Assembly: GCA_013041925.1 (NCBI GenBank)
Contig: JABDRB010000012.1
Coordinates: 248,001 to 312,000 of the forward strand
DNA: 64,000 nt
DNA from: Akkermansiaceae bacterium
Lineage (GTDB): Bacteria > Verrucomicrobiota > Verrucomicrobiia > Verrucomicrobiales > Akkermansiaceae
Reading direction: 5' to 3'
In this document: one piece after another, positions 49,155 to 58,882 of the stretch
Layout: each line of letters opens with the position of its first letter
Position numbering within the stretch: position 1 is the first letter of the stretch
The notes under the pieces: model-generated
Told to the model about the DNA's origin: nothing
Seen by the model: only the letters and a program-made list of their open reading frames with translations
Databases searched by the model: none
Translations under genes and position numbers: made by a program

Positions 49155-49427
49155 CTCGGGAAATGAAGCGAAGCCGAGCCGAAAAAACAAGTGTTTCTCC
49201 GTCGACATCGGTATTTTTTTACATCCCGAGGGGTTGTCCACCCGCCCCTATGGCCATGCATGAGGTCAAATCACCCTTAATCTCGCATCCCCCATCGAGC
49301 CAGCTCTGAGTCAAACTCCTGATTTGCCCGTAAATTTTAGGCTTTAGTATTGCTACATGGGCAATCTCTCACTAAGTTCCCGCGCCTGTCCGCATCTAAG
49401 GACATCAACCTCACTCTTTTATCTGCC

Positions 49428-51173
49428 ATGATCGAAAATATGCGTAAATACACCGTCCTGATGGCGGTCGTCTTCGTCCTGCTTGGCGCAGGATTTTTAT
49501 TCACCATGAACAACGGCACATCTAGCCGTGGCGGCGGCAGCGGACCGACCGTGCTCGAGGTCTACGACCGCGTGCTCGACCAACAGGAATACCGCCGAAT
49601 GGGTGACGCCACCCTGCAACTCGCATCCGATGCCGGTCTGCACAACTACGTTAACTTCCTCATGGTTCCCGACATCCGACAACTGCAACAAGCTATGCAG
49701 CTCATGCGATACGGATACCCGAACTACTACGTCACCATGGGCAGAAACCTGACCACACAAGACTTTAACCGCTTCGTCGCCAACCGCATCATCCTCCAAC
49801 GTGCCATGGATGAAATGGGCATCTACGCCAGCGAGGAAGAAATCACCGAGACACTCAAAACATCCCAACGCTTTGCCCCTGGCGGGAAATACGATGCCGG
49901 CGCCTACTCGACCTTCGTCGAAAAACGTCTGGGGAAACTCGGCATGACCGAGAAATACCTGCGCGAAATCGTCCGCGAAAGCCTCTGCCTGAATCAATTG
50001 ATCAACATCGTTGGAGGCGGCCTGATCCCGCCACGATCCGGCGTCCGCGATCAACTCGAAGCACAGGCACAGACGGTCACCCTAGCACGCATCGTCTTCA
50101 ACCGTGATGACTTTGTCGAAAAGGAAAACCCTACCGAGGAAGAAATCAAAGCCTACTGGGAAGCGCACCAAGATGCGTATCAAACCGAGGAAAAACGGCG
50201 TATCCATTACCTCCTGCTCGATATCCCAGAAGAGGAAAAGAAAGAAGACAACAAATCCGCCGATGCTGCCACTCCGGCATCCACCGACCCAGCAGTCGCA
50301 GCCAAGGATGCCGCGGAAAAAGCCAAAAAAGAAGCCGACGCCAAAGCGGTCAAAGAAGAAGCCCGACTCAAGGCATCCCGTGCACTCAGAAGAGAAATCG
50401 ATGAAATCGCCCAAGAAATTGACGATAATTTCAACGACAAAAAACCGCTCGACCTCGCCGCCATACTCACCAAGCGAAACCACAGCCTAGTCGAAACTAA
50501 ACTCTTCGACAGCCATAACCTGCCCAAAGAATTGGCTGACCTCACCCTGCGCGGCAATGTCAACCGTGGCCGCACCCTGTCGCAGTTGATCTTCTCAACA
50601 CGCCAGTCGACTGACCCCTACGATCTCATCTCCGACCCCCTCCCCGTTGGTGATGATGGCTGGCTCATCTTCACCCTCGAAGAAACCATCACCCCCGTGC
50701 TTTTGGACTACGCCACGGCTCGCAATAAAGCACGCGCCCAACTCATTGCCGAAAATGCGGACAGAAAAGTGAAAGTAGCCACCAAAGAAGCACGGGACGC
50801 CATTGTCGCCATCATGGAATCAGGTAAGACCTTTGATGAAGCCGCCAAGGAAAAAAGTCTGGTGCCCGTCCAGATTGGCCCCTTTTCTGCCACGGGCACG
50901 GCCCCTAAGGACGAGCCTAGCTACCAAGTTTTGCACCGCACTGCCAGCGGTCTCAATCCAGGAGACGTATCCGAGCCCATCGATGAAAACGACCGTTCTC
51001 TCTTCATTTACGTCGATCAACGTGAACTCGAAGACACCGAGGAAAACAAAAACAGAATCGACAACACTCTGAAAGCGACAAAAAGCGACCTGATGATGCT
51101 GACATTCTTAAATTGGATCAACCACCAGTATCAGAATGCTGGGGTTAAAGGCGCCGCCACCGAGGAAGAATAA
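49428..51173 (+). CDS. Membrane-anchored SurA/PpiD-like peptidyl-prolyl isomerase
   Basis: A 581-residue periplasmic folding factor. It starts with a membrane anchor (YTVLMAVVFVLLGAGFLF) not followed by a cleavage site, as in PpiD, then a SurA N-like helical region (about 55-210). A charged Ala/Lys-rich helix at about 265-310 (AAKDAAEKAKKEADAKAVKEE) is a likely long coil. A C-terminal part with TFDEAAKEKSLVPVQIGPFSATG and DENDRSLFIYVDQRE resembles the PpiD rotamase/C-terminal region. A full parvulin active site is not obvious, so chaperone activity may dominate. Stop is 34 bases before metG. Confidence 0.72.
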   Translation: MIENMRKYTVLMAVVFVLLGAGFLFTMNNGTSSRGGGSGPTVLEVYDRVLDQQEYRRMGDATLQLASDAGLHNYVNFLMVPDIRQLQQAMQLMRYGYPNYYVTMGRNLTTQDFNRFVANRIILQRAMDEMGIYASEEEITETLKTSQRFAPGGKYDAGAYSTFVEKRLGKLGMTEKYLREIVRESLCLNQLINIVGGGLIPPRSGVRDQLEAQAQTVTLARIVFNRDDFVEKENPTEEEIKAYWEAHQDAYQTEEKRRIHYLLLDIPEEEKKEDNKSADAATPASTDPAVAAKDAAEKAKKEADAKAVKEEARLKASRALRREIDEIAQEIDDNFNDKKPLDLAAILTKRNHSLVETKLFDSHNLPKELADLTLRGNVNRGRTLSQLIFSTRQSTDPYDLISDPLPVGDDGWLIFTLEETITPVLLDYATARNKARAQLIAENADRKVKVATKEARDAIVAIMESGKTFDEAAKEKSLVPVQIGPFSATGTAPKDEPSYQVLHRTASGLNPGDVSEPIDENDRSLFIYVDQRELEDTEENKNRIDNTLKATKSDLMMLTFLNWINHQYQNAGVKGAATEEE

Positions 51174-53952: not shown

Positions 53953-55452
53953 ATGATTAAGCCGCCATTTTACGCCGCGCTGGCGCTGCTTGCCCCGCTC
54001 ACCGCAGCCACAGCACAGCAGAAAAATCCACTCGCGCCACTTCCAGCTCAAACTTCCGCTCTGACACAGAACAATTACGGGTCGATTATTCGCATTGAGG
54101 CTGCCACACAAGTCCCCGACTACCGAGAGCCCTGGAAAGCGGGACGGTTCAGCGGCGGCATCGGCACGGGGTTTCTGATTGGGCATAATCGATTTCTCAC
54201 CAATGCGCACGTTGTCTCCAATGCCCGCCGACTGTTGATCACGGTTCACGGTTCCCCGCGCAAACACCCCGCCAAAATCGTCCATATCGCCCACGATTGT
54301 GACCTCGCCTTACTCGAAGTCGAAAACTTCATGCCGTTTCTGGGCCTCACACCACTCCAAATCGGAAATGTCCCCAAACTTGAAAGTCAGGTCCGTGTGA
54401 TTGGTTACCCCGTCGGAGGAAATCGCATTTCCGTCACCCGGGGAGTTGTTTCCCGGATCGACTTTAATACCTACAGCCACTCGCGCTCCGATCAACACCT
54501 TGTTGTCCAAATCGATGCCGCCATTAACCCAGGAAACTCAGGGGGACCCGTTCTTCAAAATGGCAAGGTAGCGGGCGTCGCCTTCCAAGGACTGCGCTCA
54601 GCCGACAATACCGGCTACATGATCCCCACCCCCGTCGTCAAACGCTTCCTCAAAGACATCGAGGACGGCCACTACGACCAATACGTTGACCTCGGTATCA
54701 ACTCGTTTCCCATGTTCAACCCCGCCATGCGGAAAAAATTTGGCTTGGATCAAAACTCCCCAGGCGTGCTCGTCGCCTCCGTAACTCCCGATGGCCCGTG
54801 CGATGGCGTGCTCAAAAACAATGACATCCTCACCGCCATCAATGGCAACGCGGTCGATGCAGCCGGCAACATCCTCATCGATGGCGAAAAGGTGAATATG
54901 AACGAAATCGTGGAACGCAAATTCTCGGGAGATTCCATCCAACTCAACATCATCCGTGCAGGGAAGCCCCTCAGCGTGTCGTGCACCCTAAAACCCTTCC
55001 CACCAAGCCGTATGTATGCCGCCCAATATGGAGTCAAACCACGCTTCACCACCTTCGCGGGCCTCGTCTTACAACCCCTCGATCGTAACCTCTACGCGGC
55101 CCACAGCTTCACCAACACCCGCGTCCGCCGCCTCTTCACCCACTACGTTGATGAAGCCATTTTTAAACACCGGAAAGACATCGTCATACTCACACGCGTC
55201 CTCGCAGACCCAGTGAATACACACGTCAGCGGTCACGTTGGAACCGCCGTCAAGTCCATCAATGGCGAGAAAGTAACCTCATTGGAACAAGCCCACGCCC
55301 TGCTTCACCCCAAAGACACTCCCGAGTTCTTTATCATCCAATGCGAAGGCATCGAACGCCCGATCGTTATCCCTGGTGACCAAGCCGCCGAAGCCAGCCA
55401 ACGCACCCAGACCAACTACGGCATCAGCACCCCATCACACCTCGATCAATAA
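53953..55452 (+). CDS. HtrA/DegP-like serine protease with PDZ domain(s), catalytic triad intact
   Basis: A 499-residue secreted trypsin-like protease (signal MIKPPFYAALALLAPLTAATA). The triad is complete: His86 in LTNAHVVSNAR, Asp117 in HDCDLALLEVE, and Ser196 in INPGNSGGPVLQNG. A PDZ domain follows at about 255-335 (GVLVASVTPDGPCDGVLKNND), and a second degenerate module lies near 370-480. The layout resembles the Deg subfamily that includes plant Deg7/9-like proteases. It is followed after 26 bases by a paralogue without the triad. Confidence 0.88.
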   Translation: MIKPPFYAALALLAPLTAATAQQKNPLAPLPAQTSALTQNNYGSIIRIEAATQVPDYREPWKAGRFSGGIGTGFLIGHNRFLTNAHVVSNARRLLITVHGSPRKHPAKIVHIAHDCDLALLEVENFMPFLGLTPLQIGNVPKLESQVRVIGYPVGGNRISVTRGVVSRIDFNTYSHSRSDQHLVVQIDAAINPGNSGGPVLQNGKVAGVAFQGLRSADNTGYMIPTPVVKRFLKDIEDGHYDQYVDLGINSFPMFNPAMRKKFGLDQNSPGVLVASVTPDGPCDGVLKNNDILTAINGNAVDAAGNILIDGEKVNMNEIVERKFSGDSIQLNIIRAGKPLSVSCTLKPFPPSRMYAAQYGVKPRFTTFAGLVLQPLDRNLYAAHSFTNTRVRRLFTHYVDEAIFKHRKDIVILTRVLADPVNTHVSGHVGTAVKSINGEKVTSLEQAHALLHPKDTPEFFIIQCEGIERPIVIPGDQAAEASQRTQTNYGISTPSHLDQ

Positions 55453-55478
55453 CCCCCAACACCCCAACTTTCAGAACA

Positions 55479-57002
55479 ATGAAATTCCTCACTTTCATCA
55501 TCACCCTCTTTGCTGTCGCAAGCTGCTGTGATAAAAAATCCTGCACCATCAACAAGGATGCCTCCGCTGATGACTCCACCGTCGTGTTCCACCCCCCTCG
55601 CTCGGTCCAGACATCAGTCGTCCGCATCAACTCAACCCTGCAGACATGGAGCGCCGCCCAACCATGGGACAAATCGGCACCTAAAAAACGGCGCGCTCTC
55701 GGCGCTCTGCTCAGCGACAACCGCGTGCTGACCACGGCCGAGATGGCAACCAATGTGACATACATCGAGCTTGAAAATGCCGATAGTACACGCAGGATCC
55801 CCGCCAAAGTTATCGCCATCGACTATGAAGCGAACCTCGCCCTACTCGAGCCTGACAACGGCGACACCCAAGGGTTTTTCAAAGGATTGAAACCACTCAC
55901 GCTAGGCAGCCCCGCCAAAATTGGCGACGAGGTCAGCGTTTGGCAGCTGGAAGAAAATGGCATGCCCTTGGTCACACGCGCCACGATTCAGGGTGTCGAT
56001 ATCGTGTCCAGCTTCGCCCAAGGTCACTACTTCCTCACCTATGAGGTCAAAGGTTCCATGCAAAGCTCGACCAGCAGCTTCACCCTGCCCGTCATCCGCA
56101 ACAACCAACTGCTGGGATTACTCACCAGTTACAGTGCCAAGGATCAGATCATCGACGTCATGGCGCCAGAAATCATCGCAGCATTCCTCGCTGACACCGC
56201 CGACAAAAAATACGAAGGATTCCCCTCGCTGGGCATTGCCATCAGCAGCACGGTCGATCCCAATTTTCGGACATGGCTGAAACTCTCCGACGATGTCGGC
56301 GGCCTCTACGTCACCCGCATCCGCAAAAATAGCGCAGCGGAAAAAGCAGGCATTGAAAAAGGTGATGTGATCATCCAAATTGACAACAAAGACATCGGCC
56401 GACGCGGTTACTACTCGGACGCCAACTACGGCAAACTTTTCTGGAGTCACCTCATCCGCGGCACCCACAAGGTCGGCGATTCTATCAACCTGACGGTCCT
56501 CCGTAATGGCGATGAGAAAAAAATCACCGCCACGCTAGCCCGACCAGGGAAACGCTTGATTGCATCCCATACGTTTGACCAAGCACCCCGCTACCTCGTC
56601 AAAGGTGGGTTTATTTTTCAAGAACTCACCGCCACCTACCTCAAGGCATTTGGTAAGGACTGGGAAAGCAAGGCCCCACTCAACCTACTCGATGTCATTT
56701 CATCACCGGAAGACTACGAGGAGGGACGCAACAAACTGGTCTTTCTCAGTGCCACCATCCCGACGCCAGCTACGACTGGATACGAACGGCTACGCAACTT
56801 CATCGTCAACAAAGTGAATGGTCAGCCCATTGCGGACATCCCGTCACTGATCAAAGCATTTCAAGCCGCCGGCCCTGATGGACTCCACACCATCGAGTTC
56901 GCCCACGGCCCGCCAAAAACGATCTTCCTCGACGCCACCGCCTCCGACCTCGTCGATACCGAGCTCATCAATCGCGGCATCCCGGAGCTCTCAAGAGACT
57001 AA
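55479..57002 (+). CDS. Catalytically dead HtrA-like paralogue (pseudoprotease) lipoprotein
   Basis: A 507-residue paralogue of the preceding protease with the same layout: lipobox VASC (Cys16), trypsin-like domain, PDZ near 265-345 (GGLYVTRIRKNSAAEKAGIEKGD) and a C-terminal module. The triad is lost: the TNAHVV position reads LTTAEMATN (Glu88 for His), the DLALLE position reads ANLALLE (Asn119 for Asp), and GNSGGP is replaced by KGSMQSSTSSFTLPV. The frame is intact and the PDZ domain well kept, so this looks like selected function without proteolysis, perhaps as a partner or regulator of the active enzyme. Confidence 0.85.
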   Translation: MKFLTFIITLFAVASCCDKKSCTINKDASADDSTVVFHPPRSVQTSVVRINSTLQTWSAAQPWDKSAPKKRRALGALLSDNRVLTTAEMATNVTYIELENADSTRRIPAKVIAIDYEANLALLEPDNGDTQGFFKGLKPLTLGSPAKIGDEVSVWQLEENGMPLVTRATIQGVDIVSSFAQGHYFLTYEVKGSMQSSTSSFTLPVIRNNQLLGLLTSYSAKDQIIDVMAPEIIAAFLADTADKKYEGFPSLGIAISSTVDPNFRTWLKLSDDVGGLYVTRIRKNSAAEKAGIEKGDVIIQIDNKDIGRRGYYSDANYGKLFWSHLIRGTHKVGDSINLTVLRNGDEKKITATLARPGKRLIASHTFDQAPRYLVKGGFIFQELTATYLKAFGKDWESKAPLNLLDVISSPEDYEEGRNKLVFLSATIPTPATTGYERLRNFIVNKVNGQPIADIPSLIKAFQAAGPDGLHTIEFAHGPPKTIFLDATASDLVDTELINRGIPELSRD

Positions 57003-57040: not shown

Positions 57041-58882
57041 ATGATTCCGTTACCCATCAAACGACTAAGCACAGGTTTCGTCTGCGCCATGGTCATTCAC
57101 ACAGCCGAAGCCAAAACCATCCATGTTGCAGACCACGGGGTCATTCCGGGTCAAGATGCCACTCTGGCCCTGACGCGCTTGATCCATCATATTGATGGGG
57201 AAAAAAATATCACACTGGTATTCCCCAAGGGAACCTACGATTTCTATCCTGAAAATGCTTCTGATCAATACCGTGCGGTTTCCAATCACGACAACAGCCT
57301 GAAGCGGATAATCTTTTCCTTGGCCGGCAACCAGAAGCTGACCATCGACGGCGGCGGCTCCGATTTTATCTTTCACGGCCGAGTGAGCCCATTCGTGCTG
57401 AATCGTGTCGATGGAGCCACCTTGAAAAACTTTTCGATCGATTGGAAGCGTCCGTTCCAAAGTGAACTTAAAATTGTCGAGCGCAATACCGACGACCGAT
57501 CGTTCATCGTCGAGATCGACCCCGAAAAATACCCCTACGTGATAAAAGATGACCGCTTGTATTTTAAACACTACAATTGGGAGGACCCGTTTGGCGCGAA
57601 TATCGTGTTTGACCCTAAGACAGGCGCACCCATCCATGATACACGCAAGTATTACATCCATCCCAACTCGAAGATCAAAGCCACCGCCGCTGGGAAAAAC
57701 CGGGTGAAAATCGAAAGCCAGATCAGCACACCGCCGCCGGTAGGCACATACATGATCGTCTACGGCGTGGAGCCAACAAGTCGACTTTGCCCCGCCATCG
57801 ATGTGACACACAGTAAGGACGTCGTGATAGAAAATGTGCAGATCTACGCAGCAGGAGGTATGGGGATCATTGCTGAGCGGACAGAAAACATCCACCTAAA
57901 CAACTTTAATGTCACCACGCGCAAGGGTAGCGGCCGACTTGTCTCAGCCCGAGCTGATGCCACCCATTTCATCGGATGCAAAGGTGACATCCTTATCGAA
58001 AACTGCCTCCTGGAACACATGCTTGATGACAGTTCAAACGTCCACGGTGCCTATGTCCGGGTGGAGAAAAATCTGGGAAACAACCAGTTTCTCTGTGCCA
58101 TCAGTCATCCTCAGCAATGGGGGCTGACCTTTGCCGAGGCGGGCGATAAGGTGGCGATGTTATCGCGTGAAACCATCCTTCCATTTGCCAAGACCACCGT
58201 CAAAGCCGTCAAAAAAATCAACGAGCAACGGATTATCATCACACTCAGCTCAACCCCGAAAAATCTCCCTAACGTTCCGATGTCATTAGAGAACTTGTCG
58301 TGGAACGCTAACTTCACCATGCGGAATAACACCATCAAGGAAAACCGCGCCCGCAGTGTGCTGATCACGACCAAGGGTAAAGTCCTCTTGGAGAATAACT
58401 ATTTTTCCTCACACATGAAAGGTATCCTCATCGAGGGGGATAACCATTACTGGTATGAGTCGGGTGCCGTGCAAGACGTAACGATCAGGAACAATGTATT
58501 CAACAACATCGGCTATGCTGGTGGAAGCCGTGGGTATGCCCTCTACGCCTCACCCATGATCAGGAAAGGTCAGCGGATGGGTGAGGGACGCTATCACCGG
58601 AACATCCATTTCACAGGCAATACCGTCAAAAGCTTTAACGGACAGTTCATCTTCGCCCGCTCGGTGGATGGTCTAAACATCACGGGAAACACCTTTGAGC
58701 TCAGCAAAGACTACCCAACCATTGACACCAAGCCCCCCGCTATCGACCTCCACTATTGCGACAACGTCACCGTTGATCAAAACACGATCAACGGTTTTGA
58801 ATCGACCATGAACGTGCGTATCTCATCAGACACTGAACATACTCATGTCTCACCCGGCCAAGGGTTTGTGATTGGGGAATGA
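57041..58882 (+). CDS. GH110 alpha-1,3-galactosidase
   Basis: A 613-residue secreted right-handed beta-helix enzyme. It shows the GH110 N-terminal pattern VADHGVIPGQDATLALTRLI, FPKGTYDFYPE, AVSNHDNSLKRIIFSL, TIDGGGSDFIFHGR, and LKNFSIDWKRPFQSE, then ITRKGSGRLVSARADATHF-like text at about 290 with the conserved aspartates, and parallel-helix repeats (MRNNTIKENRARSVLI, TIRNNVFNNIGYAGG, HFTGNTVKSFNGQF). GH110 enzymes cut terminal alpha-1,3-galactose, e.g. from blood-group B ends or carrageenan fragments. The N-terminus MIPLPIKRLSTGFVCAMVIHTAEA is a signal peptide. It lies 38 bases after the pseudoprotease gene. Confidence 0.85.
   Translation: MIPLPIKRLSTGFVCAMVIHTAEAKTIHVADHGVIPGQDATLALTRLIHHIDGEKNITLVFPKGTYDFYPENASDQYRAVSNHDNSLKRIIFSLAGNQKLTIDGGGSDFIFHGRVSPFVLNRVDGATLKNFSIDWKRPFQSELKIVERNTDDRSFIVEIDPEKYPYVIKDDRLYFKHYNWEDPFGANIVFDPKTGAPIHDTRKYYIHPNSKIKATAAGKNRVKIESQISTPPPVGTYMIVYGVEPTSRLCPAIDVTHSKDVVIENVQIYAAGGMGIIAERTENIHLNNFNVTTRKGSGRLVSARADATHFIGCKGDILIENCLLEHMLDDSSNVHGAYVRVEKNLGNNQFLCAISHPQQWGLTFAEAGDKVAMLSRETILPFAKTTVKAVKKINEQRIIITLSSTPKNLPNVPMSLENLSWNANFTMRNNTIKENRARSVLITTKGKVLLENNYFSSHMKGILIEGDNHYWYESGAVQDVTIRNNVFNNIGYAGGSRGYALYASPMIRKGQRMGEGRYHRNIHFTGNTVKSFNGQFIFARSVDGLNITGNTFELSKDYPTIDTKPPAIDLHYCDNVTVDQNTINGFESTMNVRISSDTEHTHVSPGQGFVIGE

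Follow-up and report, generated by a model that had tools for sequence, protein, structure and literature searches.

The tandem gene pair

The window, a stretch of 64,000 nucleotides from a 3.28 Mb assembly of an Akkermansiaceae bacterium (Verrucomicrobiota), carries two HtrA-type ORFs that lie 26 nt apart on the + strand. Their features are:

53953..55452, + strand: active HtrA of the DEG9/DEG2 type, 499 aa, with a Sec-like signal, a trypsin-like domain, PDZ, and PDZ_3 (Pfam; match to 4fln, E 1.2e-73)
54208..54210, + strand: codon of catalytic His86, motif TNAHVVS (alignment)
54301..54303, + strand: codon of catalytic Asp117, motif HDCDLAL (alignment)
54538..54540, + strand: codon of catalytic Ser196, motif NPGNSGGP (alignment)
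55453..55478, + strand: intergenic gap, 26 nt
55479..57002, + strand: pseudo-HtrA, 507 aa (Pfam, alignment, structure model)
55479..55526, + strand: lipoprotein signal of the pseudo-HtrA, lipobox VAS-Cys16, lineage-specific
55611..56198, + strand: degenerate trypsin-like domain of the pseudo-HtrA, about residues 45-240 (Pfam, model, fold match)
55740..55742, + strand: Glu88 at the His position, TTAEMAT (alignment)
55833..55835, + strand: Asn119 at the Asp position, YEANLAL (alignment)
56079..56081, + strand: Phe201 at the Ser position, STSSFTLP (alignment)
56199..56546, + strand: PDZ domain of the pseudo-HtrA (Pfam, model)
56547..56999, + strand: PDZ_3 module of the pseudo-HtrA (Pfam)

By domain content and fold, both products belong to the DEG9/DEG2 type of the HtrA/Deg family, with the trypsin-like fold of the pseudo-HtrA assigned by model. 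Over 343 aligned columns, the two proteins share 24% identity (E 9e-25). The catalytic residues and canonical motifs that the original prediction assigned to the first gene are all present, and the Trypsin_2 (95.9 bits), PDZ, and PDZ_3 matches of its product lie above the Pfam cut-off. The second gene is also as predicted: Glu88 and Asn119 occupy the aligned columns, with Phe201 in the third, there is no GNSGGP motif, and the PDZ domain and C-terminal module are kept (PDZ_2, 49.6 bits, and PDZ_3, 81.8 bits, above cut-off). Its Trypsin_2 score of 23.6 bits falls under the curated cut-off of 27.6. With Ser199 at the oxyanion position, the pseudo-HtrA lacks both the triad and the oxyanion glycine of an HtrA enzyme. 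Alignment to solved HtrA structures, a check proposed with the prediction, places both proteins nearest to plant DEG9 and DEG2.

An AlphaFold2 model of the pseudo-HtrA, built on alignment A1 (see below), has a pLDDT of 92.4 and a pTM of 0.87, and residues 1-26 are the only stretch below pLDDT 50. DEG9 and DEG2 rank at the top for this model in both Foldseek and VIA-align, and comparison with DEG9 (5il9) gives a Z of 39.2 and an rmsd of 2.8 over 454 residues. The model thus predicts a complete DEG9-like HtrA whose site is dead. A contig scan yielded one relative of it, 87% identical, in an Akkermansiaceae metagenome-assembled genome; PDZ_3 was not found in any of the 14 well-known control genomes.

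Three genes upstream of the pair is a SurA/PpiC-like peptidyl-prolyl isomerase protein (49350-51173 of the window), a family that lies upstream of 6 of the 106 pair loci described below. The gene directly downstream (57041-58882) encodes a GLAA-B-like beta-helix protein. It has no relative beside any other pair locus and, for this reason, is probably unrelated to the pair.

Conserved loss of the catalytic site

HtrA-type ORFs were read in 117 loci, comprising the window and 116 loci fetched from matching genomes, all sampled within the Verrucomicrobiota. Of the 223 ORFs, 115 are H-D-S. None of the other 108, the pseudo-copies, has the full triad, and single catalytic residues are kept in only a few rows (His in 2, Asp in 2, Ser in 1). 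The His position holds E (50), D (24), Q (12), A (8), S (6), N (3), H (2), or R, T, or W (1 each), so that Glu, Asp, or Gln is found there in 86/108 copies. At the Asp position, N predominates (99, with G in 6, D in 2, and E in 1), and the Ser position is aromatic in 86/108 (F 46, Y 20, W 20, other 22). Conservation of the triad loss in orthologous pairs, another of the proposed checks, holds in 106/106 adjacent pairs, as does the gene order, which is more than chance would give.

Alignment A1 contains 87 of the 108 pseudo-copies. The 21 rows outside it (13 of the 15 from other classes, five from genus g3, two truncated at contig ends, and L047) are mostly more drifted. Asn119 is invariant in A1, and the fair count is therefore 99/108 over all pseudo-copies. 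Pfam finds PDZ_3 in 87/87 members of A1 and recognizes Trypsin_2 in 17/87. The same residue is present in at least 75% of both the active and the pseudo type at 33 columns, including a Pro-Trp near the N-terminus and positions in PDZ and PDZ_3. Another 30 columns, nearly all within the protease domain, are conserved in the active type but not in the pseudo type. Conserved positions specific to the pseudo type are Y312, D314, and G318 in PDZ, G434 and Y435 in PDZ_3, and D115, which lies close to N119 and, like it, is nearly invariant.

A shifted but intact triad, named at the outset as fatal to the idea of a pseudoprotease, is rejected. No column of the protease domain (residues 45-240) contains His in more than 26% of A1 rows, and Ser200, beside Phe201, is not conserved (Ser in 57, Gly in 24, and Thr in 5 of 87 rows). 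The position that is Ser199 in the window is Gly in 17/87 rows and non-Gly in 70/87.

The pseudo-copies most drifted at the three catalytic positions are those of genus g3 (L056, L089-L092, and others; probably Akkermansia), with examples such as A-G-P, R-G-A, and W-G-R; the active partner there stays H-D-S. Pseudo-copies of other classes are also drifted at these positions.

Gene order and co-occurrence

Adjacent active and pseudo genes are present in 106 loci, and in 106/106 the active gene precedes the pseudo gene, with both on one strand. The pseudo start nearest to the active stop lies within 50 nt, abuts, or overlaps in 93/106 pairs; it abuts or overlaps in 43, 27 of these by 4 nt. The remaining 11 loci comprise 9 with only the active copy and 2 with only the pseudo copy. 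Among the former, L058, L059, and L060 are close to contig ends, L057 is the active member of a pair whose genes lie on two contigs of genome G025, and five loci of other classes in the phylum (L161, L162, L164, L165, and L172) have the active gene alone. Both pseudo-only loci (L079 in G025 and L111 in G111) have an active gene elsewhere in the same genome. In G025 and G226, which belong to one genus, and in G111, the two genes are on different contigs, away from the ends, and both are kept. The 20 loci read from outside the class consist of 15 pairs and 5 active genes without a partner.

Searches of 189 genomes of the class with the active query (E up to 1e-30) and the pseudo query (E up to 1e-10) matched the same 94. 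Both members are present in 87 genomes, the pseudo gene alone in 0, and neither in 95, a count that rests on match tables; for 52 of the 87, the pseudo copy itself was retrieved and read. In the other 7 genomes, the only match is a more distant protein of the DEG9 type (E 1e-50 to 1e-60), with GNSGGP in all four that were read. These numbers and the fixed gene order speak for a selected pseudoprotease, genetically tied to the active gene, and to this extent support the original prediction.

Beyond the pair, the neighborhood is not conserved: the commonest neighbor family occurs in only 11/106 pair loci. A larger operon is rejected, as neighbors are common only to near relatives. Distances within the active and within the pseudo protein sets are strongly correlated (r = 0.93, 5565 pairs), which mainly reflects common descent and is no proof of contact.

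Origin and selection

In an unrooted FastTree phylogeny of 229 proteins, a single branch with support of 1.0 parts 109 pseudo proteins from 115 active and 5 distant DEG9-type proteins. The 15 pairs from outside the class, found among 20 loci chosen from matches there, fall on the same sides of this split. Because they do, the simplest reading of the tree is one old duplication followed by inactivation.

Values of dN and dS were obtained by NG86 for 16 pairs of loci; dS was saturated in many, and the values given here are those with unsaturated dS. Between the window and its nearest relative, L061, the active gene has a dN of 0.069 and a dS of 0.981, and the pseudo gene 0.073 and 0.889; the resulting dN/dS is 0.082 for the pseudo gene versus 0.070 for the active gene. 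The corresponding dN and dS are 0.024 and 0.423 (active) and 0.031 and 0.469 (pseudo) for L062-L064, 0.013 and 0.174 versus 0.018 and 0.161 for L078-L080, 0.030 and 0.462 versus 0.075 and 0.545 for L046-L048, and 0.115 and 0.689 versus 0.168 and 0.875 for L076-L077. By domain, the mean dN over ten pairs is 0.039 (active) and 0.081 (pseudo) for the protease domain, 0.091 and 0.124 for PDZ, and 0.098 and 0.102 for PDZ_3. The rate in the dead protease domain is therefore roughly double that in the living one but still below that of the PDZ in the pseudo protein.

Judged by dN/dS, a check proposed with the prediction, the pseudo gene is under purifying selection near the level of the active gene. 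Frequent frameshifts in orthologues, the other finding that might have overturned the prediction, did not appear: a single TAG lies inside one pseudo-copy match (G206), with none in the other pseudo matches listed. Together with a dN/dS of about 0.08 and the complete modeled fold, this sustains the earlier view that the neighbor is not decaying. On the sequence evidence, the pairing of active and pseudo genes has an old origin, is maintained by selection, and persists over much of the phylum.

Export signal and lipid anchor

A simple hydrophobicity rule identifies a signal-like N-terminus in 115/115 active and 106/108 pseudo copies. A lipobox is found in 4/115 active and 23/108 pseudo copies, that of the window among the 23. 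The earlier statement that the neighbor "keeps the signal" is only loosely right: both proteins of the window begin with a signal-like sequence, but only the second has a lipobox; that of the active HtrA is plain Sec-like. Within the genus of the window, a lipobox is present in L061-L064 and L070 and was not found in L065-L069. Given this variation and the overall count, the lipid anchor appears to be an extra, not the shared function. As a general core function it is rejected, and the proposed membrane anchoring is not supported as a general feature.

Further pairs in the same genome

PF13365 matches eight places in the genome of the window (G000). Two of its other contigs carry additional active/pseudo HtrA tandem pairs, L181:5196-7240 on C25 and L182:4670-6934 on C19. 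The first gene of each has TAAHV or TAGHV together with GDSGGP. The second has TKASE or TKWSE, with His replaced by Ser and the nucleophile by Val or Cys, and its PDZ is nested between the first trypsin-like part and the GGP strand. In model m991acae5c516 (L181:5196-6209), the PDZ is apparently inserted before the last strands of the trypsin-like domain. We know of no HtrA protein with this domain order. The nested-PDZ model has a pLDDT of 82.5 and a pTM of 0.69, and its Foldseek matches are HtrA proteases that do not superpose cleanly over the whole length.

A search with the nested-PDZ type gave 79 matches. Fifty ORF records score above 150 bits (loci L193-L242, three genes fetched twice), and at the former His position 48 of them have Ser, one has His, and one does not extend over it; the other 29 matches, which have the His, are active neighbors. 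The type is present in 31/189 class genomes (E up to 1e-30). Within the genome of the window, three of the five catalytic HtrA-type genes have a pseudo-copy directly downstream.

A further DEG9-type HtrA subfamily with GNSGGP was seen in L185, L186, L187, L191, and L192, with no pseudo-partner among the adjoining ORFs read. In G111 (L187), it coexists with a pair of the window type.

Possible roles of the pseudo-HtrA

The pseudo-HtrA is probably a partner or controller of the active enzyme. A non-catalytic partner is suggested because, in the class, the pseudo gene never occurs without the active gene, the scaffold is whole, and the site is replaced in a pattern. Our main proposal, based on sequence, models, and analogy and given a probability of about 0.5, is a two-component HtrA unit of the envelope, made up of a catalytic subunit and a dedicated non-catalytic pseudoprotease that serves as partner or activator. 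Catalysis would fall to the DEG9-type serine protease encoded by the first gene. The pseudoprotease, which has the same domain architecture and is presumably co-transcribed, would reach the same compartment by export and, in the lineage of the window, carry a lipid anchor. It would most likely join or touch the oligomer of the active enzyme as a non-catalytic subunit, its former active site closed by the aromatic residue, and would supply substrate capture through PDZ/PDZ_3 and/or an allosteric push that sets the activity of the enzyme. The most likely role is that of a regulatory or substrate-binding subunit of the active protease. Two observations count against a partner subunit: active copies without a partner in other classes indicate that the active enzyme can work alone, and the drift in genus g3 and in other classes indicates that the remodeled site is not kept everywhere.

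A broader and more tentative idea, which we would not yet favor, is that envelope proteolysis in many Verrucomicrobiota depends on two-subunit HtrA machines, in each of which the catalytic subunit has its own pseudoprotease encoded immediately downstream, and that such pairs arose at least twice with different architectures (DEG9-type and nested-PDZ). On this view, the pseudo site (Glu/Asp/Gln-Asn-Phe/Tyr/Trp) would be no relic but a conserved site remodeled for peptide reading or allostery.

HtrA proteins also act as chaperones, and the pseudo-HtrA could instead act independently in the periplasm, as a chaperone or a peptide-binding protein, taking part in the same stress response without sharing a complex with the protease. 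Besides this known activity, the pseudo PDZ outscores that of its partner against the Pfam PDZ models, the pseudo type has its own conserved residues in PDZ and PDZ_3, and the genes can be separated onto different contigs. An independent protein is hard to reconcile with the lack of any pseudo gene without an active one in the 189 class genomes and with the fixed order of all adjacent pairs, and we consider it unlikely, although it ranks next after the partner reading. Third in order is inhibition: as an inhibitor or decoy, the pseudo-HtrA would reduce the activity of the protease, for example if mixed trimers contained fewer catalytic subunits. A dead subunit would indeed result from an aromatic residue in place of the nucleophile together with the loss of the oxyanion Gly (70/87 A1 rows); the sequence gave no hint of an inhibitory loop, and this role seems improbable. 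A membrane tether for the soluble active protease comes after it and is quite improbable: the lipobox of the window and its near relatives (L061-L064, L070) would fit, but most pseudo-copies, including the congeneric L065-L069, show none.

Neither of the two remaining explanations has much to recommend it. Catalysis through a shifted or new active site might draw on Ser200, a serine in most A1 rows, and on the nearly invariant N119 and D115, but the domain has no candidate His column, Ser200 is replaced by Gly in 24/87, and the oxyanion Gly is mostly lost; it is very improbable. Decay of a functionless duplicate, for which the lost triad and the TAG in G206 might speak, has the smallest chance of all. 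It is contradicted by the dN/dS, the lack of stops in the other pseudo matches listed, and the conserved replacement residues, and it also fits poorly with a fully supported tree split common to loci of several classes.

Comparison with known systems

Active and inactive HtrA modules are joined as a unit in yeast Nma111, where they are fused in one polypeptide. Plant DEG7 is likewise such a unit, and its inactive domain is reported to contribute to trimerisation (PMC3473262). It, too, is a fused polypeptide, unlike the two separate ORFs described here. Plant DEG9 and DEG2 (PDB 5il9, 5ilb, 4fln), the best match in sequence and fold, have the same order of trypsin-like, PDZ, and PDZ_3 domains, but in the alignments they keep the triad; the available part of PMC3473262 makes no mention of a separate pseudo-partner gene for either.

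MamO, as described in PMC4794232, is an HtrA-like pseudoprotease retained with an active HtrA, MamE, a pairing said to be under selection. Like MamO, the pseudo-HtrA has a degenerate triad, an active HtrA partner, and a catalytic loop with a bulky aromatic residue and a residue other than Gly. Unlike it, the pseudo-HtrA has neither the TauE transporter domain nor the di-His metal site: Pfam gives no TauE match in the pseudo protein of the window or in A1 members, and, with no His column above 26% at residues 45-240, no di-His site is conserved in A1. Moreover, the genes described here share one architecture and are adjacent and phylum-wide. The same paper reports that MamO is needed for MamE-dependent proteolysis while its own triad is dispensable, that no physical contact between MamE and MamO was found, and that activation needed the TauE domain of MamO (PMC4794232). 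MamO is the nearest precedent that has been tested, and with Deg7 it speaks for the partner-subunit reading. Since TauE is absent here, the MamO precedent also counts partly against that reading, and neither MamO nor Deg7 shows that the present two proteins touch.

We found no description of this pair in the literature, as far as a coverage short on subscription journals extends. Because Trypsin_2 is weak on the pseudo members, they would pass as PDZ-domain proteins, a blind spot of domain annotation. The pairing of active and inactive HtrA was earlier argued from magnetosome clusters and tied to biomineralisation. Here it occurs outside that setting, over a deep range of the Verrucomicrobiota and with two architectures in one genome, so that it becomes possible to test in other bacteria why HtrA proteins retain a dead sister. 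Thus, while pairs of active and inactive HtrA were already known, what is new is a pair that is unfused, DEG9-type, adjacent, and deep in the Verrucomicrobiota, accompanied by a second pair type.
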